11,433 bases of DNA from Smittium culicis (Eukaryota; Kickxellomycota; Harpellomycetes; Harpellales; Legeriomycetaceae). This document shows positions 1 to 11,433 of the stretch, piece by piece. The position numbers and the translations under genes were made by a program. The notes under the pieces were generated by a model, which worked only from the letters and a program-made list of their open reading frames with translations, was not told the origin of the DNA and ran no database searches. Each line of letters starts with the position of its first letter. Within the stretch, counting starts at the first letter, position 1. The stretch lies in NCBI GenBank assembly GCA_001970855.1, contig LSSN01000328.1, positions 1-11,433 of the forward strand, read 5' to 3'.

Positions 1-1838
1 GGCTCATCAATGAAGCTTTTTGAAGCTAATGACTTATTGCTGATAAATGAGCTATTTTCAACCACGGGAAAATCATCAACTAAGCTAATGTCTAATATTT
101 TTGTTAAATTGTCGATTAGAAATGATTGATAACAATAGTTTAATAAGAGTTGTGAGTATTTAGATTATTGGTTAGAAAAAAGATACCAGTTTTTCTTTTT
201 TTAGGGAGTGAAGAAGTAGCCTTGGGCTGAGTTTCTGGTGACACTATGTTTACTGAGTGACTTGGTTTATCATATTCATTACTAATTGAGATAGTAGATT
301 TTTTTCTTAACAAAGCAGAAGATTCTTGAATCTGTAAAGGTTAAAGAAAAAACGAAGGATAAAAAACCTTTTTTCAAAAGAATGAAAGATGGTCATAATT
401 TTATTGTATTTTATACAAATACTTATAAATTTATCATATATCTGTGTGAGAATAAGTAAATAGTGAGTATACCTGAAATTCTAGCTGAGTTTTAAAAGAG
501 TCCATCTGTTTTTGCATTTTTTCTTGGATAAAAGACTTTTCAACAGAAAGTTTTTCAGTGACAGAAACAAGAGTTTCTTGAAGGTTGACATTGTCATTTT
601 CAGCCTGAATTATAACATAGAGAGAATAAATATATATTTTATATGTAAATAGAGAAAATTAAGAAAGAATGATTTGATTACTTTTTGGAGTTTTCTTCTA
701 ACAGTTTCGATTTCACCTCTTTGTAGGCTTAGCTTTTCTTCTAATTCCATAATTCTTTTCTCACGATCTGCAATTTTGTCACTTAGCTAAGTATGATGGA
801 AAACAATTTAATAAAAAGTAATGTTTTAATTAGCGTCAACGTAAATTGTGTGATAGTATCGAATAAAATATAAATTAAAATGTTAGTGAGTACCTTTGAT
901 ATTCCTACAGAGTTGTCATTATTCAAAATATTATGAAAACCATTATTACTTGAGTCTTTTTCATTAATGTTGACGTTTAAAATTCGGTCCCCATAGTTAG
1001 CTAAAAAAATATCAAAAAAGCAAATTGACGAATATTTTAGTAAATAGGTCTAATAAACGTAAAATAAAATGAGATTACGTTGAACTTTGAGAGATTTTTG
1101 GTTATTAATTACTTGATTTGGTGGTATAGGGGGGAGAGTTATAAAACTATTTGAGTGATGATTATTATGAAGGTTGTTTGTTAAATTTATATTTTGAGCA
1201 TCAAATTGACAACTAATAGATTCTAAATTAGCACTTTGAGCTCTCTGTATTATGGAAGTATTGTTATTTGTTTTAGAATCTAAAGAAGTTGAAGATTTTT
1301 CAGCGTTATATAGAGAAATGGGTAGCATTTCATTGCTATAGGCCTTATTGTTGATTAAATTTGCGATAGAACTGTTGTTTTTTGTAGAGGTAGGTATAGG
1401 AGAATGAGAAGCAGCAGAGGTAAATTGTTCTGCTTGGGATGCATAGTAGAGCTCTTCGGTCTCCATGACCTTTTTCAGAGTCTGGGAATCGAACTCGATT
1501 TCAAAGTCATCATCGGGGAAGTCTAAGTCCAAGTCTTGAGATTGCTCTTTTAAATTATGGTTACAATCAATGTTATTTTTAGGGAGTTTTTCAGAGGTAT
1601 TATTTTCAATTCCTGAATGAACCAAGTTTAAAGGATTGATTTTGTGAGAGCTTTTGGTTTTATTTGGTTTGTTTGCAAAGCCATTTATGTTTTTTGTTTT
1701 GTTAAAATGTGTTAAATTAGTTATAAAGCTGTTGGAGTTGGATTTAGAGTTAAAATCGTTAAACTGATCAGACTCTAGATCAGAAAAATCATCGAATTCT
1801 TGAGAAAAATTTAAATCTATAATTTCTTGAGGATTCAT
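1..1838 (-). CDS. ATRIP: ATRIP/Rad26-like ATR-kinase partner, 5' part, six exons, truncated at window start
   Basis: Exons on the minus strand, 5' to 3': 1838-1079, 1000-894, 786-682, 604-473, 331-187, 91-1. The introns are 78, 107, 77, 141 and 95 bp and all junctions keep one open frame of about 446 residues that runs off the window. An in-frame TAA lies a few codons upstream of the ATG at 1838, which supports this start. Seen: an Asn/Ser-rich N-terminus; an acidic patch (residues ~102-118) followed by a helix (119-137), as in the RPA-binding region of ATRIP; a coiled coil (~290-385) with Q-R-G-E-I-E-T-V-R at 311-319 matching the conserved ATRIP 'GEI..LR' coiled-coil start; a second conserved-looking stretch LEFQ..ESSALLRKK; and a basic KKRK at 412-415. 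Family knowledge: ATRIP (fungal Rad26/Lcd1/UvsD) recruits ATR/Mec1 to RPA-coated single-stranded DNA. The identification is by remembered alignment, and the C-terminal HEAT part that would confirm it is outside the window. Confidence 0.72.
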
Positions 1839-3219
1839 CAGCTTTTATTTTCTAGATAAATTTACAGACGAAAGAGAGGAAAGACTCAGGCGTCCAATAT
1901 AAATTCTAAGAGAGATTTCTTATTTGGATCGAGATTGGATGAATCTTTTTGTCTATCCATTAAAGTATATTCTTGTTAAATTCAAAGTATTAGTAAGAGA
2001 CCATTAAAGCTAAACCAACTCTACTATCAAAATCGCGTCAGACTTTTAAAACTGCGAAATTTTGATCCCATAAAAACCTACCGTTTTTAGATCGCTTATT
2101 TTATTGGATACGCATGTGATAATTTTATGAGCTTGATCATAACTAGGCTTTCTTTGCTTAATATGATTCGGTATAAAGGAAAGGTGCCAATTTCCTTTTA
2201 AAGTTATATTTGATTTTAGACTGCATTTTCTGCTTTTAGACGAAGTTTATTTGACAATTCAATTCAGGAAATTTTAATGCGCATTCTTACCCAAACCAAA
2301 AAAACCATACAGTTAAACCTCATTTTGTATTTAGCACTCTGTTTAATTCGCATATTATATAACTCCGATTATACTCACACATTGCTTAACAAACATATCT
2401 TATAACTCTGATTTATACTCTCGCGGAGCTTAACAAGCATATCTTATAACTCGCATTTACACTTAACCAAAGCGTAGAAATGGGCTTAGTCTATTGCTAT
2501 TTATTATTTTGCAATAAAATTACTATTCCCGCTTTAAACGTTTCTAAATTGCATTATTGACTAGCATTTTCAGCAAATATAAGAAATATTTAAGCAAATC
2601 TAAGAAATCACTATTTATCTTAATTGTAGTTTAAAATCTAATATTTGATTTTGGGAGTGGAATTGTAAAATATTTGGTCAAGCTGCTTTTAGAAATTATC
2701 TCAAGTGGTTGGCTGACTCTATTTTGATTTTTTGATTTTTTTATCCCATTCAGATTTATTATTGGGTACGAGTATTTGCTGGATAATCAAACTTGCGATC
2801 AAATAGTTTCCTCACAGTAAAGGCTTTTTATTCGCCAAGCTCCATAGCTTAGAATTTAATATTCTCTAATAGAGTTTGTATTGAAACGCTTTTTAATTAA
2901 ACAAATTTATACACCCAAGCATTTAACGATAAATTTAGTATCTACTTATAATTCTGTCTATAGCTCATCAAATTCTACGAAAATCTAATACCTTCCCTAC
3001 AACACAAACTACTTCAGCAAAATATCTTCAATTTATAGCCAAAGATTATATATGTTGCATTATGCTTTAGCTTTTTCGATTTCTCGATAATACCTATACT
3101 TTGCGAGTTTAATAAGAAAATATTAGGAAACCAATCTTCTTCATTAAGCATAAATACAATAGATTTATATTAAGCATTCAAAAAAAATTAACTGCTTTAA
3201 TTCGCTAATAGTATATAAA
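1839..3219. other. Divergent intergenic region between the ATRIP-like gene and the kinase gene
   Basis: About 1.4 kb without a supportable gene on either strand. It must carry the 5' regions of both flanking, divergently transcribed genes. A TATATAAA-like string at about 3212-3219 directly abuts the kinase ATG, so it is more likely leader sequence than a TATA box. The only internal structure I can point to is the tandem repeat at 2341-2468 and a smaller 16-bp near-repeat (AGCAAATMTAAGAAAT type) at about 2572 and 2593. I looked for tRNA B-box-like sequence and for spliceosomal snRNA signatures and saw none. Confidence 0.6.
2341..2468. repeat. Imperfect tandem repeat, three units of about 41-44 bp
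   Basis: Three head-to-tail degenerate units: 2341-2383, 2384-2427 and 2428-2468. Units 2 and 3 share GCTTAACAARCATATCTTAT followed by AACTC and an ATTTAYAC block. Unit 1 is more diverged but keeps the CATATTATATAACTC and ATTATAC blocks. It lies about 0.75 kb upstream of the kinase start and 0.5 kb upstream of the ATRIP-like start. No function is evident. Confidence 0.7.
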
Positions 3220-5438
3220 ATGAGTGAAATTAACATAGACCTCGATAAAATATCCTTCAACAGCCATATAACTCTTATTACCACAGGTCTTGGAAATTTA
3301 TATTCAAGACTACAAAATTTTGAAGCTAGCTCCAAAGACCAAAAGCTATACTCGAAAAAAGCTCAAAAGGCTTCTTTACCATCTGCTTTCAAAAAATTCA
3401 ATAGTGATTTGTCATCAAATAACTGCCGTCGAGGTCAAGGCGCTTTCTCCCCTATATACACCGATCTATTAATTCTAAATCATAGTAACAGTAATACTTG
3501 AATTTTAATTTTATTCCTATAAATTATCTAGTACTTATTATATCACCTATTCTATTATTTTTAATTTCTTATTTACTAAATATTAATTGTTGACTTGTAA
3601 TTTTTTTTTATTTTTGAATGTTTAATATTTATTGAAATAAATAACGCACGTTAAATTTTTAGTTGCTCCAAATAAAGTTCCAAAAACTTTCAACTCATCC
3701 CGAAACTTGGTAGATGAATATCCAAGCAGTGGTGCAGGTAATTTACTCTATATCCTTGTTTTATTTATATTTTTTACTTTTATATTCACCCCTAATTTGT
3801 AGAAAGCGAAGCTTGTGAAGAATCACCCCCATTTTTTCAAACTCCTATTTTTTTACCAAAATTCACTTCAAAGAAATGCAACGTTTTAGATCATAGTTAC
3901 ATATCGGATATCCCGGACTCAAACGAACAACCCCTAATTGAAATGAGTAAGATTGAATTTTTCCTGAACATAATTTCCTATACTTTAACCATTTACAATT
4001 TTAATTTAGATAACAGATATAAAGTGTTGTCACATTTGGGCAGCGGCGAATTTTCAGATGTATTTCTTGCATATGACTCTTATATCAATTTAAACTTCAC
4101 TAAAAAAGGCTTCTCAAGTAATAGGATTGTATCTCTAAAGCTAATGAAAGATAATGAAAATGATATCGGCTTAGCTGAATACTCATCACTTCACTTCATT
4201 CAAAAAAAAAAGTCTCTTGATCTAAAAAAATATGTTGTTTCTATGTATGACATTTTTAAAATTCCTACTTCTCAAAACATTTCGCAACTAAATTGTAGCT
4301 GGAAAGTAGTACTGGTTATGGAGCCTTTATTTGGAGGTGTTTTAAACCAATCTCTTGCTATTAAATTAGATAAAATCAAATCAACCACTTCTGACCCCAA
4401 CGTTTTTATCCTAAATAAGCTAGTCCTAATTAAAGACGTTACAAGCCAAATCCTGGCTGCAATTAACGCACTACACAAAATACACATTATCCATGCCGAT
4501 TTAAAACCTGCTAACATAATGTTTGTCTCCAATGGTATCAACTTTTTTAGAATTAATCTCTCATCTTTAAAATGAATACATACATACTATTATTTACATT
4601 ACTACTAATTAAAAATATTAATATACTTTAATTAAATCAATTTTTAATTTTTTTTTTTTAGATTCGAATAAAATAAAGCTAATAGATTTTGGTAACTCTG
4701 TAAAATATTACAATTTACACCACTACTTTACTGACTATGAAATTCAACCACTATGGTATAGAGCACCCGAGGTTAGCTTTTCATAGTAATATATATTAGA
4801 AATTTAAATTTGTACCATATTTCTTAAATTACAACACTCTTTCAAACACTATTTTTTTATTATTAAATATCCTTAGGTTGCTTTCTGCACGAATTTTGAT
4901 TCAAAAATCGACATTTGGTCGGTTGGATGCATTTTTTGCGAAATGTGGACTCAATATCCACTATTTCGATCTTTTGACAATTCATCATTAATATCTAGTA
5001 TTCGCGATTTAAGAGGACCGCTGCCAGAATACCTAAATTATCAATCACTTAATGAACACATTTTGTCGCCAGAAAATTCACCTATACAAAATTTAAAGTT
5101 AAATAATTCAAAGAATTTACAAAACACACGTTCTTCATTATCAGATTTCCCAAGACAAACCAGGTATTTTCCATTTTTTTAATCTTTTCTTTTATTAATG
5201 TTAAAAATTTAATATGCATATATTCTTCAAAGATACTAATTTTTATTCTTTTTTTTTTTTGACCTTTTTTTTTCACTAATTTTTCTCTAAATTAACAAGG
5301 AGGGATTATCTTGGAAAAAAACTTGACGTCAATTGTCCAGAATTCATATCTCTGGCAGATTCTCTGCTTGAACTTGACCCCGAATTAAGGATAAACTCAT
5401 TTGACGCACTGAATCATGACTTTTTTTTAAAATATTAG
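3220..5438 (+). CDS. CMGC-type serine/threonine protein kinase, seven exons, 516 residues
   Basis: Exons: 3220-3490, 3663-3737, 3803-3946, 4010-4534, 4662-4771, 4877-5163, 5300-5438. All phases agree and the stop is TAG at 5436. An in-frame TAG upstream at 3160 supports the ATG at 3220. The first ~160 residues are low-complexity and Ser/Asn-rich. The kinase domain follows: Gly loop GSGEFSDV (174-181), VAIK-type lysine K207, a candidate alpha-C glutamate E220, catalytic loop HADLKPAN (325-332), DFGN (347-350), WYRAPEV (370-376), DIWSVGC (387-393) and the final LELDPELR helix (494-501). The HAD in place of HRD, and the EIQ..WYRAPEV activation segment, recall the DYRK/SRPK/CLK branch, but I cannot assign the subfamily. 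The segment after GPLP (~410-465) holds a polar insert. All residues needed for phosphotransfer are present, so it is probably active. The exon 1 donor could instead be at 3485 (same phase). Confidence 0.85.
3947..4009 (+). other. 63-bp in-frame intron of the kinase gene that contains no stop
   Basis: The intron runs from GTAAGATTG to TTTAATTTAG, with a TTTAACC branch-like stretch. It is exactly 21 codons long with no stop, so it reads through as coding. Splicing joins EM to NNRYKVL, the usual residues just before the glycine loop in SRPK-like kinases. Retention would insert a hydrophobic 21-residue stretch there. A start at the ATG at 3943 would place the start codon only four bases before this intron, so it is unlikely to be the true start. 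Confidence 0.75.
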
Positions 5439-5849
5439 TGCTTTTTCGATTTCTATAAAAAAAATTTTGATGTTATTAGTGTATTTTTAATTATAAAAAA
5501 AAAAAAAGATCCTGTAATTCAGTTTGTTAAATTGACTCGTATCCACTTTCTTCCCTGTCCACCTTTTTTTAGTCTTATGCTTTTTATTTTTGAATATAGC
5601 TTTAAAAGAAATTTTTTTTTATAAAAGCTGGTCTAAGCTCTAAAAAAAAAGTGTTGCCTAAATTGAGTTAAAATTAAATATAATTCGAAAATTTTGATTT
5701 AGAGAGTTCCGAATAATATATACTTGTAAAAAAAAAAATTTTTTTCTAGATAATTTTAAATTTGATTTGGATATACATTTACTCTATTGACGGATATAAG
5801 TATAGGTCATGATTTATGGGCTAAAAATAATTAAATAACCAAATCTAGA
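5439..5849. other. Convergent spacer between kinase and WDR89-like gene
   Basis: A 411-bp interval between two converging genes, so it holds both 3' untranslated regions. It is dominated by A and T homopolymer runs, for example near 5496-5508, 5611-5621 and 5729-5746. No open frame of note and no recognisable RNA gene. Confidence 0.6.
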
Positions 5850-6872
5850 TTATATCGCTGACCATAAACAAATTAGACCATCCTCGCCACCAGTTATAGC
5901 AGTATTGTGGGCAAAGTTGAACTCGATACATCTAACAATATCTGAATGACCCCCGATCAATCGGGTTAAATGACTAACACCTCCTATTTCAACATTAAAG
6001 ACGTCTAAATTTCCAGAAATATCCCCTGTAGTTAAGTACAAGCTGTTATTGGCCTCATTAAAATCACAATTTACTGCATAGTCGATAAGTGGCCCTTTAC
6101 TATCATCTTCATTAATCAAACTTCCATAATCTTTAACAAGAGTGCAATCATCTGACCATAAAGATAGTGTGTTCATATCCGTCACACAATAGAAAAATTC
6201 AGAGTTGCTACCTACATAACCTAGTTGCTGAATTGAAACGTCTGTTGTTGAAGAGAAAAGCATCGCATCGTCCTCATCAATTGTTTCTGAAAAATCGTAC
6301 AAGCATACTAAACCATCGGTAGAACCAGACATAAAACGCATATTTGATTGCTTGTGGCATCTGATTTGCGAAATATCATTGCTATGAGTTTCTGTAAAAA
6401 CGGCATACTCTTTCTTATCCATTCTCGCATCCCAAATGAATATCCCAACTTGATCATCAGAAACGAACCCTTTGTTAGCAAAGGATTTGTTATTCTTTTT
6501 GTTCAGATTGCCATCAACCTGTTCGCTTCCTGCAACTACAAACTGATTGTCGCAGCTTATATCAAATGATAGCAGAGGAAAAGGAGAAATAAATTCTTGA
6601 ACGGCTGAAATTGAGTCAACTCGAACATCATATATCTTCACAGTGCCATCGAGGCTACTGCTAGCTACAAAATTTTTATTCATTGATTTAATCCCAGTTA
6701 TCGGCTGATTATATCCATTATATTCTCTTAATAGTGATAATGAGGTATAGTCATGCAGTCTTATACAGCTTTCTGTAGATGAAACTATTCCGAGATCTAC
6801 ACCACTCACATTCTGTATGTATTGGGCTGAACCATTGATTTTCGGCAATTCTATTCGATTCACGCAATTCAT
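5850..6872 (-). CDS. WDR89: WDR89-like WD40-repeat protein, intronless, 340 residues
   Basis: A single open frame from ATG at 6872 to TAA at 5850. WD40 repeat features are spread along the protein: SSLDGTVKIYDVR (72-84), GIFIWDARM (143-151), ETHSNDISQIRCH (161-173), SGSTDGLVCLYDF (182-194), LSLWSDD (236-242) and GGHSDIVRCIEFN ... GGEDGLICLW (307-338). The order and spacing of ETHS-D-I-x-Q-I-R-x-H, GSTDGLV-x-x-x-D, a block of acidic residues at 198-202, and a C-terminal GGH ... GGEDG-x-x-x-LW match the WDR89 family rather than generic WD40 proteins. The length is near the family's roughly 340-390. A low-complexity KKNNK insert sits at ~120-138. Function: probably a beta-propeller protein-interaction scaffold; the family's cellular role is poorly defined. 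It shares the minus strand with the helicase-like gene but is 1.36 kb away, so there is no sign of co-transcription. Confidence 0.8.
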   Translation of the reverse strand: MNCVNRIELPKINGSAQYIQNVSGVDLGIVSSTESCIRLHDYTSLSLLREYNGYNQPITGIKSMNKNFVASSSLDGTVKIYDVRVDSISAVQEFISPFPLLSFDISCDNQFVVAGSEQVDGNLNKKNNKSFANKGFVSDDQVGIFIWDARMDKKEYAVFTETHSNDISQIRCHKQSNMRFMSGSTDGLVCLYDFSETIDEDDAMLFSSTTDVSIQQLGYVGSNSEFFYCVTDMNTLSLWSDDCTLVKDYGSLINEDDSKGPLIDYAVNCDFNEANNSLYLTTGDISGNLDVFNVEIGGVSHLTRLIGGHSDIVRCIEFNFAHNTAITGGEDGLICLWSAI

Positions 6873-8228
6873 TATTTAATTTTTTTTTTTTTCCTTCTAT
6901 CGAATGTTTCTAAATTTCTTGATCGTTGTGTTCAATTTACAAAAGTACAAGTGTATTTAAAATAAAATTATTCAAAAAAAATATTTTCATATTACTTTTT
7001 TGATATATAAAACGCTAAAAAAAATTGCCAATGAGCTTTGAGACGTTTATGTTTACCACCCAATTATCGTAATTTGGTACTGATTTATAAACATAGTTGG
7101 CTGGTGTGATCACGTTAGTAGCTAATCATCTTTCCCATGAAACTTTTTTTTTTTGACACACTTCAATCTAGACAAATAATATTTGTAGCCTTCTGGTTGA
7201 GCTTGGACATCTATGAAATCTAAAATTATCTCTAAGGCTTATATTATTTTTTATTTTCAATTTTTTAATATTCAAATTAGGTATATAGCCAAAAATATTT
7301 AAATTCATTTTACCAAACACACAACGCACTCAAAGTCACTTACATTTTTACGATAAAATTTATTCTGTTATATAGCGTGTTAATACAACATTGTTTTACC
7401 ATATAGTACCTAGGTTCTGTAAGACAACATGCCTTATATAATATCCTTTTGATTAGGAAATTTTATCTTAAATCTTCCATACTACAAGCCCAAAAAAAAT
7501 TTGAAATTTGAAAAAAACGAATGTTGTTAAACCAGATACAGATAAGAATTAAATAATAAAACCTTGACTTATTTTTACAATAACACTAACTGTATATCAA
7601 TTGGGCCTACAGTCATGAGATTCTACAGTTAAAATAATCAAAAGGTCTGATTGCCTGGAAAAATTCATTCTTTTAATAAATACAAAAATAAAATCTCAAA
7701 GTTAATTCAGTAACTTTCATTACTACCTCCTTTTAATCACAATCGGATAAATGCAAAAACAATTTAGCAAATATAACTAGAATGATAATTATGCTATATT
7801 ATGGGTTATCTACAATTTTTAGATCCATGGCTTAAAAATTATTCTTAAACAATTTGTTAAATATTTATTATAGGATATTTACATATAAAATGATATGTTT
7901 TTCAAGTTTCAAATTATATTTAAAATTTTAAACGTATGTTAAAACCTAACTGTATAAAAAAAAAAGTAAAATGATAAAAAATATCTTTATTATAGGTCTA
8001 GGTTATCAAATCCTTAATTGGTAACATTAGAAAGATATAGAAATTTTAATATATTAAAATCTTTAACTGCCAGACTAAAAGATAAAGATGCAATACATGT
8101 TAATGAAAAATAAACTGAAATCTAGCTGAATGAAAATCGATTTGGCCTAAATTACCGTAAAAAAAATATAAATATTTAAAAAATGATAAATTGAGAATAA
8201 ATTTATGAAAAGTAATATAAAATTTGCT
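6873..8228. other. Long AT-rich intergenic region
   Basis: About 1.36 kb between the 3' end of the helicase-like gene and the start of the WDR89-like gene, both on the minus strand. It holds the WDR89-like promoter and the helicase-like 3' untranslated region. Very AT-rich, with short A/T tracts. I find no conserved-looking reading frame, no spliced frame, no tRNA and no clear repeat. The longest small frame I noticed (plus strand from ATG 7137, about 28 codons) has no family resemblance. Confidence 0.55.
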
Positions 8229-11097
8229 TTACATTATATAAGGAAGCCACTCTGGTTCAATAATAGACACGTTAGTCATATAAAGCTTTGTTGTTTCGAT
8301 AGCTAATAGCATTGAGATAGTATTATATTTTTTAAATAAATAAAAAGTATTAAAAGTGATTAAATTTTTATATATTTAGATAGCTTAGCTTACCTTGTGT
8401 GTAAATTACAAGCTTGGGTGTAAATTTAAACAAGCAAGAGTTTGGGTGAATAAACATGATCTAAAAGATATAATATAATGTTAGTTTTGCTATAATAAAC
8501 AGCTAAGAGTTATAAATAATACAATAAGGTTAAAAACGGCCTGATACCTGATTAGTTGATATGTTTCTATAGTTTATTCCGTCTTTTTCTAATTCACAAA
8601 TGTTATTATAAAACCCTCGCACCAAGCACTTTCTAATTAGTGTTGATTTTAAGTTTAGCATCGAACTATTGATATTTACAAGGTTTTTTATAGAGTGATC
8701 AAATCCTATCTCTGATAGCTTTTTGATAGAGTTCTGCAGCAGCTGGTATAATTTTTGTGCTATATTATATGCCTTTTTCAAAACAGCATAATCAAGGTTA
8801 TGCTTTGAGGACCAATGCGATAATGAGCTCTCTGTACTTGAATAATGTGTTTTAACTCCTATATATGCCAAAAACACATTTATCAAGCAAAGATGATCAC
8901 TTTCTTTAGAGGCAAATTTCAATTTTTGGCTATCTGTATCTGCTCCTCGTCTATTGGATTCGGTGAATACGGTACCTGCACTAAGCATGGATGCTACAAT
9001 TATCATCTCGAGACTGATATCTATTTTTGAACTATTAGATACAGTCATATTATTTGAAAAGTCAGATGGCAAAAATCTATTTGGCCCATTGTAGTTGTTG
9101 ATAGTTTCGAGAGAAGATAACAAGCATACTCCTATTGAAGGCTCCAAATTAAATAGGACTATACTGTGTATAATTTGGTACTCTTTTTGAGTTATTTTCT
9201 TTTCCTTCTTACCAAGCTCAATAATACCTAGCGTAGATAAGGACTCTATAGCACTTGTGATTCCTTCCCTGGATGGACCTGGCGGAATGATATCAAACTG
9301 GGTTGAATTCGCGCTGTTACCAATTAAAAGTAAAACAAGCAGTAGTAATCGGGATAGCTTAGAAGGCCCTATTCTATTAATTTCTGGGACATCAAATTCC
9401 GGCATTCCTTCTTTGTACACGGCTAACGGATATAAGCGATAGCATTTTCCTTCGAACCCGCTCCCGAAAGAATCCTTTACGATTGATGATCTAGTGTCAG
9501 CTAAAGATTTAGATATTGGCATAACTTGTAGAACGTCTGTATTTTTTTTATAGTCAAAAGCGATTTCCTAATAAATTAATAAAAATGAGCTTAAAAAAAT
9601 AATAATAATTTTAATCTATAACTTCATACTTTTTTTATGCCAGGATCGATTATATACTTAACACCTTTAATGTATACATTTTCTGCCGATCCAGTCGAAA
9701 GGTAAACTCGGCGAAAATCATTGCTATTTTGCTCTGGCTTATACTTAAGGTCTTCTTCAGAGGAAAAAGAGTGCAAAGGTATTGAAATTAGCTCTAAACC
9801 ATCATAATTTCTATTAATGATAATAGCAAATAGTTTACAGGTGTAGAAGATATGCAAAAAATACTATGAAAGCTACTGATAAATAAAATACCTTTCTGCA
9901 TACGATGATAAGAGATGTGACACTCGCTCAATCTCTTTAAACCCATTTAGAAAAACCAAAATATCTCCTTTTTGCTCGTTCTAAGAATAGAAATTGAAAA
10001 ATTAATATATATAAGATAAAATATGCTAGGCTATTTAAAGAATTCAATATTAAAAACTTTATTATTACAAAGTGTATTTTTCTAGCTGTTAATGCAGCCT
10101 CTTCTAAATAATCTACACACGGCTCTTTCAGATAGTGTATATCTACTATGCTACTCGAGTTTACTAAGTTTATTACAGCATTTATTTTTTTATCTTCTTT
10201 TTTATCATTCACAGTTGGAGTTTTACTATTTCCAAAGTAATTCGAAATCTGTGAAATTGAAGCTTCATTTGAAACACAGAATACAAGTTTTAGGTCGCCT
10301 CTTTTTCGTTGTATTCTGGATTATAATATAGTTAAATGAGTTAATTAAATAAAATTAAATTTTATATATTAAAAAAGATTCAATAATAAAATTTTAATTA
10401 AACTTTACTTTTTCAATATTGATAATAAAATATCGATTTCAGCAGTCCTTATATCAACATCGTCAATTATTAGTACTGAAATGTCTGACAGCAATGGATT
10501 AGTTAAAATTTTAAGGAAAATATAGCTTATACTTTGATATTTTATCCTGGTTTTCCCTGGGACGCAATTTTCTTCGTGTTCGGCTGAAAAGCCTATTAAG
10601 CTCTCGTTGGTTTCATTGTTTTTGTTTTTTGATAACATAGCTAATCTTATTACGTTTGAATTTTTGGCCTATTTTATAAAAAATAATATATAGATATAGA
10701 TATCTTAGAACTTTGTCGCTCCTATAGCTTGAACAAGCTAAAAATACAAAAAACTGTAAAATAAAGGATGTATTTAAATAAATACCGGGACGTAGCATAT
10801 TGATCTAGAAGAATCCGACCATCCATTCTGAAATAGCAGATATGGCAAATCTTTAATAAATTTAAAGCAGGTTGAGTTTTTAAATATTACTGAATAAAAA
10901 TATATTACATAGATAATAAACAGCACTTACAAGTCTCAATTTCGCAATACCGATTTTTTATTATTGAAATTGTGTTTGATTTACTAAGAGCATATAATAT
11001 TTTCGTTTCTACCAAACGAAGAATTATTGTTTAGATAATAAAATAAAATTCGGTTATAGATCATTAACTTACTATTGTGATAAACTATGTTAGACAT
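8229..11097 (-). CDS. DHX35: DHX35-like DEAH/RHA helicase homologue with all catalytic motifs lost (pseudohelicase), ten exons, ~701 residues
   Basis: Exons 5' to 3': 11097-11073, 11008-10931, 10850-10786, 10668-10409, 10315-10069, 9980-9892, 9810-9630, 9567-8548, 8460-8394, 8302-8229. The nine introns are 62-117 bp and phases agree throughout, ending in TAA. Family landmarks: GW at 44-45, TRIKY, NPLL, KKIQRKRGDLKL (142-153; very DHX35-like), VDIHYLKEP..DY, GDILVFLNGFKEIE, KYIIDPG, GKCYRLY (355-361), MPEFDVPEI, the HA2 segment FASKESDHLCLINVF (533-547), OB-fold IHPNS (659-663) and ETTKLYM..EPEWLP near the C-terminus. The catalytic motifs are replaced: Walker A by KNRYCEIET (26-34), TQPRR by YVPAK, DEAH by DDVD (125-128), SAT by CVS (156-158), motif V by STGSAEN (293-299), and motif VI by TRSSIVKD (340-347). 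ATP hydrolysis is therefore not expected. DHX35 proteins are spliceosome-associated, so a scaffold role is my inference. The family's N-terminal extension before the core is almost absent. Confidence 0.85.
10851..10930 (-). other. Second intron of the DHX35-like gene, with two in-frame acceptor choices
   Basis: The donor is a strong GTAAGT at 10930. The first acceptor, TTCAG ending at 10890, gives a 41-bp intron and 13 extra residues. The second, AAAG ending at 10851, gives an 80-bp intron. Both keep frame. I chose the second because it brings the sequence into gap-free register with the DEAH family from the Walker A position to the conserved Gly-Trp, and because 80 bp fits the other intron sizes. 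The first has the better acceptor consensus, so both may be used. Confidence 0.55.
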
Positions 11098-11418: not shown

Positions 11419-11433
11419 ACCCCCCCCCCCCCC
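11419..11433. repeat. Terminal poly-C run at the window edge
   Basis: Fifteen consecutive C residues end the window, in an otherwise strongly AT-rich sequence. There is no repeating telomeric unit. The best reading is a sequencing or assembly artefact (poly-G/C read tail) at a contig end. Confidence 0.6.

Follow-up and report, generated by a model that had tools for sequence, protein, structure and literature searches.

A DHX35-type protein of Smittium culicis that lacks its helicase motifs: a likely pseudohelicase in a genome whose GPATCH1 has no detectable G-patch

Smittium culicis is an insect gut fungus of the Harpellales (Kickxellomycotina). A stretch of 11,433 nucleotides of its genome, contig LSSN01000328.1 (hereafter the window), holds a gene related to the DEAH helicase DHX35 in which the catalytic motifs are altered, and it raises the question of whether such a gene still encodes a useful protein and of what a DHX35 without a motor might do. 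A cryo-EM study published in 2025 (PMC11958768) proposes that GPATCH1 and DHX35 together reject spliceosomes with a faulty 5′ splice site, through docking on PRP8 and the undoing of the pairing between U2 and the branch site. In C. thermophilum, DHX35 is delivered to U2 snRNA by GPATCH1, which is docked on PRP8, and the branch-site pairing is undone. A lineage that has both proteins, with neither the motor nor the activator motif, would be a natural test of docking or blocking against unwinding.

The gene was rebuilt exon by exon (Table 1). An earlier note on this DNA had described ten exons without a stop or frameshift and a 701-residue product, and both are reproduced by the rebuilt model, in which all nine introns are of the GT...AG kind and range in length from 41 to 117 nt (714-residue model). 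Two acceptors are available for exon 3. The AAG acceptor (10850) leads to the 701-residue product, while the CAG acceptor (10889), located 39 nt upstream, adds 13 residues beside motif I and leads to 714 residues; with either of them, the lysine of the P-loop is absent from the register. Alignment work was carried out on the 714-residue form, and the database searches (Pfam, solved chains, proteins and genome) on the 701-residue form. The N-terminal extension of about 60 residues that is present in many DHX35 proteins was not found in the gene model or alignment, and the customary APHFY tail is missing from the end of the model (exon 10).

Table 1. Coordinates of the DHX35-like gene in the window, and of the GPATCH1 orthologue elsewhere in the genome.
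Feature	Position	Strand	Description
DHX35-like gene	11097-8229	-	ten exons
Exon 1	11073..11097	-	start ATG, MSNIVYHN; from gene model and alignment
Exon 2	10931..11008	-	motif I remnant KNRYCEIET (~10958-10932) in place of GETGxGK(S/T)T
Exon 3	10786..10889 (or from 10850)	-	ends in YVP, part of the motif Ia remnant
Exon 4	10409..10668	-	TRIKY kept; motif Ib lost; motif II DDVD (10464-10453), not DEAH
Exon 5	10069..10315	-	VDIHYLKEP kept; motif III lost
Exon 6	9892..9980	-	motif IV ILVFLNG kept
Exon 7	9630..9810	-	YIIDPG kept; motif V altered, TGSAE-N (9695-9678)
Exon 8	8548..9567	-	340 codons; motif VI TRSSIVKD (9495-9472), winged helix, ratchet, start of OB domain
Exon 9	8394..8460	-	OB domain
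Exon 10	8229..8302	-	end of OB domain and stop
GPATCH1 orthologue (L043)	G000:C2139:11422-14179		five exons, 698 residues; spliced by homology

A second contig (C1995) represents the other haplotype of the window contig (C252), to which it is 99.3% identical across 9.26 kb, and carries the same gene from residue ~177 onward. Out of 63 differences between the two haplotypes, one alters the coding sequence of the DHX35-like gene, where codon 575 in the 714-residue form changes from Ser to Asn. The sole S. culicis protein entry that we found for this gene (P0142, which stands for two sequences) matches 61% of exon 8 at 100% identity. It is a 218-residue fragment named RNA helicase, and the loss of the motifs is therefore easily overlooked. 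A pseudogene or a sequencing error was rejected because the haplotype contigs agree, save for that one codon, across the part of the gene that they share (8229-10217), and also because of the match to P0142 and the unbroken frame. Hidden exons that would restore the motifs were rejected as well, since the altered motifs lie inside exons that align on both sides.

Similarity to DHX35-type proteins along the whole length, as put forward in the earlier note, is confirmed by the protein search. The top named proteins among the best 120 of 367 matches are of the DHX35/DEAH9 type, with 27-31% identity and coverage up to 99%. The best solved chain is 9l5s_z (E 5e-71), which is labelled only as 'RNA helicase' and belongs to an entry that also contains GPATCH1, and the second-best match is human DHX35 in 9s2f. 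With DHX35, Gih35 and DEAH9 the protein has in common not only this whole-length homology but also the order RecA1, RecA2, winged helix, ratchet and OB in the alignment. Pfam (E up to 0.1) detects OB_NTP_bind (77 bits) and HA2_C in the product and detects neither DEAD nor Helicase_C. In a control DHX35 from Coemansia (P0103), Helicase_C reaches 45 bits and DEAD 20 bits, below the cut-off of 26; the missing DEAD match alone is therefore weakly informative. The OB score of 77 bits compares with 74 bits in a Coemansia DHX35 with an intact P-loop.

In our tree, the S. culicis protein and its homologue from S. mucronatum form a pair (100/100), which joins four DHX35 proteins of Coemansia with modest support (83/61). 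A union of the Smittium pair with five S. culicis paralogues (Prp43, Prp22, Prp2, Prp16 and a DHX33-like protein) is rejected, not strongly (p-AU 0.031). The branch leading to the pair is very long (2.17), and DHX35 proteins and paralogues are not fully separated, two plant DHX35 proteins falling with the paralogues (92/92). Taken with this reservation over an unsharp tree, the S. culicis gene appears to be a DHX35 by descent.

What sets the product apart from DHX35, Gih35 and DEAH9 is the state of its motifs. Of these, IV is still recognisable, as are the winged-helix, ratchet and OB regions, whereas I, Ia, Ib, II, III, V and VI are disrupted (motif states as aligned are given in Table 1). 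The sequences that mark an active helicase, namely the P-loop GxxGxGK(S/T), DEAH in motif II, SAT in motif III and QRxGRxGR in motif VI, are all absent; motif VI is kept in 119 of the 120 listed matches (the best 120 of 367). The changes reported previously for motifs I, Ia, II and V are seen again in our gene model and alignments. Motif III is lost as well, with the nuance that SNE, not CVS, stands opposite SAT in our alignment. In motif VI the second and third arginines, which we take to be the arginine fingers, have indeed become Ile and Asp, and the first arginine (that of QR) is retained.

Conservation at motif and other positions was assessed against 104 of the 120 DHX35 matches, those shorter than 640 residues and one Coemansia protein (P0002, described below) having been dropped. 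In columns conserved at 95% or above, 12 of 44 motif residues are kept in S. culicis against 72 of 123 other residues (Fisher p 0.0004), which bears out the claim of a selective loss of catalytic over non-catalytic sites. The contrast is also seen in columns conserved at 90% (13/48 motif residues against 94/183 others, p 0.003) and at 80% (14/53 against 133/299, p 0.015). When the 90% columns are divided by domain, with boundaries set by hand, motif residues are kept at 3/27 positions in RecA1 and 10/21 in RecA2, and non-motif residues at 26/55 in RecA1, 29/49 in RecA2, 12/25 in the winged helix, 12/31 in the ratchet and 15/23 in the OB domain. The fold may well be retained, as also proposed earlier, with support at the level of sequence from the alignment and from the Pfam matches to the OB domain and HA2_C.

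The homologue in S. mucronatum (P0143) is known from an incomplete gene model of 477 residues and is 57% identical over exon 8. It is also without motifs III, V and VI; its model does not cover motifs I-II and IV. In the alignment, motif V is one residue shorter in both Smittium proteins, and both have extra residues following motif VI and ahead of the ratchet; their common lineage-specific insertions amount to 69 columns that are 52% identical between the species. Among the conserved positions in the overlap of the two proteins, both retain 63, only one of them retains a further 28, and neither retains the other 88; at 47 of these 88 the two carry the same replacement. Because of the shared replacements and the shared indels, the motifs were most likely lost before S. 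culicis and S. mucronatum diverged, and the altered state appears to have been largely conserved since then.

These data also bear on a less favourable reading, according to which Smittium is losing the GPATCH1-DHX35 pathway as a whole and both genes are unbroken remnants of little function. The divergence between the congeners is high (57% identity over exon 8 versus 68% for the adjacent WDR89 gene), which would also fit relaxed constraint. The non-motif positions conserved at 95% are themselves reduced in S. culicis, and P0143 taken alone displays no contrast, 12 of 22 motif residues being kept against 46 of 77 others (p 0.81). Both partners, as described below for GPATCH1, are without their catalytic or activating parts, and, according to the part of PMC9658070 available to us, S. 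pombe can do without Gpl1, Gih35 and Wdr83. Such decay is, however, difficult to reconcile with about 700 codons in ten exons that are still open and joined across GT-AG introns, with 47 derived residues and insertions common to the two species, and with an OB domain at full strength. Selection was gauged by retention of the open frame, in place of dN/dS. When exon 8 was evolved neutrally under the base composition of introns to 54-61% identity, 12-14 stops arose on average and the frame was open in 0 of 300 runs per step, a range that covers the observed divergence. We consider this reading unlikely, and the open reading frame is likely to be kept under selection. Judged from its sequence, the S. 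culicis protein is thus likely a pseudohelicase, that is, a helicase-derived protein whose catalytic residues are gone and whose frame is kept by selection.

A second, intact DHX35 elsewhere in the genome, for which a search had been suggested in the earlier note, was not found in 56.3 Mb of S. culicis sequence, either with the S. culicis product as query or with Coemansia P0103, a DHX35 that keeps the P-loop and motif VI and has DEAQ at motif II. Candidates for a second DHX35 were all rejected: C75 is Prp43 (C1487 is the same sequence by eye), C1857 is Prp22, C649 is Prp2, and C841 is Prp16 (C992 has identical match values). By eye, C213 and C1861 are DHX33-like, without a close solved chain, C844 is DHX37-like, and C898 and C1385 are DHX29/57-like. 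The published assemblies of two S. culicis strains measure 71 and 77 Mb according to the accessible portion of PMC5954228; the absence is therefore not final, as 15-21 Mb of the published assembly size lie outside the sequence searched. This difference in size, together with the genome duplication proposed for Smittium in the same portion of that paper, is what favours the idea that our gene is a diverged second copy left by such a duplication and that an intact DHX35 resides outside the 56.3 Mb. We regard this as rather improbable in view of the two queries that yield no intact DHX35, and of the single GPATCH1 found, which is without the motif that would serve an intact DHX35. No Smittium-named protein occurs among the best 120 of 367 matches, which is a weak argument in the same direction as many of these are unnamed.

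The S. culicis genome, as in the case of DHX35, Gih35 and DEAH9, also encodes GPATCH1 (Table 1). It retains a conserved DUF1604 region (E 9e-33), by which GPATCH1 is attached to PRP8 in the known structure, and the match to a solved GPATCH1 reaches E 7e-40. That there is a single copy is supported by the DUF1604 search alone. A G-patch was not detected in the model by Pfam at E up to 10, a whole-genome G-patch scan gave 11 matches with none on contig C2139, and no G-patch was present in the three forward frames of the 286-nt third intron, whose weak, inferred donor (GTCATT) precedes the place of the lost motif. The G-patch signature, as given in the portion of PMC9658070 at hand, scores 5/9 in S. 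culicis GPATCH1, which is the commonest score among shuffled sequences (349/500); among controls, the five of the 11 G-patch loci whose match is on the scanned strand, four score 8-9 and a weak one scores 6. The stretch of GPATCH1 that is expected to wrap the RecA domains is not alignable past one landmark. What is new here is that GPATCH1 is encoded with a conserved PRP8-docking N-terminus and without a detectable G-patch, in which it differs from the partner of DHX35, Gih35 and DEAH9, just as the helicase model differs from these in having neither the N-terminal extension nor the C-terminal tail.

The earlier guess that the protein belongs to the spliceosome gains support from this retained but altered GPATCH1. 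Going by the two sequences, motor and activator both look dismantled, and the remainder persists. The common insertions and the 47 common replacements in the two Smittium proteins suggest new constraints, and could be taken to mean that the scaffold has been recruited to some new task unrelated to splicing, in which it binds protein or RNA. In GPATCH1, however, the end that docks on PRP8 is retained and the change affects precisely the motif that served DHX35; this points to the old partnership and makes a new task highly improbable. Our favoured reading is that the only DHX35-type protein found in S. culicis probably serves the GPATCH1-DHX35 proofreading module as a subunit without a motor, its open frame likely being under selection. 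As far as the available text of Li et al. (PMC11958768) goes, S. pombe work is cited there for binding mediated by the G-patch, which contradicts a passage on that work. If binding needs the G-patch, GPATCH1 and the DHX35-like protein may no longer meet.

For a motorless module of this kind, the following working can be proposed. GPATCH1 would still dock on activated spliceosomes via PRP8, and through contacts that do not involve a G-patch it may keep the DHX35 relic bound as a passive body. The relic, having no ATP hydrolysis, would be unable to strip U2 snRNA from the branch site; at most, it might block the site sterically and tether partners. Rejection of bad substrates would be left to DHX15/Prp43, the motifs of which are intact in S. 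culicis, and to other DEAH motors with intact motifs. Motifs Ia, Ib and V have a role in RNA contact. Since these motifs are also lost, protein contacts would be expected more than an RNA clamp, and it is doubtful that the relic acts as a passive clamp on RNA. It is possible, and we suggest it tentatively, that a proofreading machine has turned from an ATP-driven into a motorless one, with GPATCH1 shedding its G-patch in step, that the job of the remaining scaffold needs no unwinding, and that, given the parallel erosion in a Coemansia described below, this switch has perhaps begun more than once in the Kickxellomycotina.

If the checkpoint is motorless, 5′ splice sites in these fungi are predicted to be looser. 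Among the 13 introns of the DHX35-like and GPATCH1 genes, G is present at +5 in 4 and T at +6 in 7. As a lead drawn from S. culicis with no comparison species, these donors might be weak 5′ splice sites of the kind that the GPATCH1-DHX35 checkpoint handles. U2 was found in the S. culicis sequence, and U6 has a normal ACAGAGA box, so the U6 side is not visibly altered.

Besides the S. culicis protein, changes in all three of motifs I, II and VI are seen in only one protein among the best 120 of 367 matches. This is P0002 from Coemansia sp. RSA 2603, a protein of 649 residues from a cluster of four sequences, in which motif I reads GEPGSGRST, motif Ia TQPRH, motif II DQFH, motif III TVA and motif VI LRADRAGH, all of them changed. 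It resembles the S. culicis protein in the alteration of motifs I, Ia, II, III and VI, and both fungi belong to the subphylum Kickxellomycotina. However, P0002 is far less diverged than the Smittium pair and has different replacements. Pfam still detects Helicase_C in it (37 bits). Its motif residues are kept at 29 of 44 positions conserved at 95% against 100 of 124 others, which is a trend (p 0.06), and at 90% no such trend is seen (p 0.73). Three other named Coemansia proteins keep the P-loop lysine, SAT and all arginines of motif VI, with GEPG in motif I and DEAQ in place of DEAH. Because P0002 is nested within the Coemansia clade (99/98), among proteins that retain these residues apart from DEAQ, and because its replacements are unlike those of Smittium, erosion of the DHX35 motifs seems, from the sequences compared, to have happened twice, in separate events.

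Pseudohelicases as such are already known, and a motorless DHX35 would be a new variant among them. Utp25/Def, as described in the accessible part of PMC9539457, is like the S. culicis protein a relative of helicases with vestigial motifs inside a large RNP machine. It is, however, DEAD-box-like and acts in the SSU processome and ribosome assembly in yeast and human, whereas the S. culicis protein is of the DEAH/RHA type, is probably tied to the spliceosome, and shows the loss in one fungal genus. In the PriA pseudohelicase of Deinococcus radiodurans, going by the portion of PMC4504706 available, one lineage has likewise lost an activity that is retained elsewhere; it differs in being a protein of bacterial DNA replication restart. 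Judged by titles and the openings of abstracts, none of the literature on pseudohelicases that we found concerns a DEAH or spliceosomal protein. At the same depth, a literature search for a degenerate DHX35 or DEAH protein, or for loss of GPATCH1, gave nothing relevant.

The rest of the window contains further genes and features. An Rfam search of the window gave no match. On the minus strand, an asparagine- and serine-rich gene occupies positions 1-1844, with an open stretch of 264 residues (1053-1844) that has no Pfam match, and is followed by an intergenic tandem repeat at 2351-2463 (period 44, 2.6 copies). A spliced protein kinase is encoded on the plus strand at ~3220-5436; its nearest solved chains are CDK6 and DYRK2, and its catalytic loop has HAD where HRD is usual. 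The intron-free WDR89 gene (5853-6875, minus strand) is 68% identical to that of S. mucronatum and 51% to that of Furculomyces, and the WDR89 entry listed from the S. culicis genome has 277 residues only. The haplotype differences between C252 and C1995 are unevenly distributed, with 61 of the 63 in 1281-4885 and 2 in the last 5.3 kb (4886-10217), so that heterozygosity falls sharply across the WDR89 and pseudohelicase genes. At the contig end, a run of C (11419-11433) probably marks the end of the assembly.
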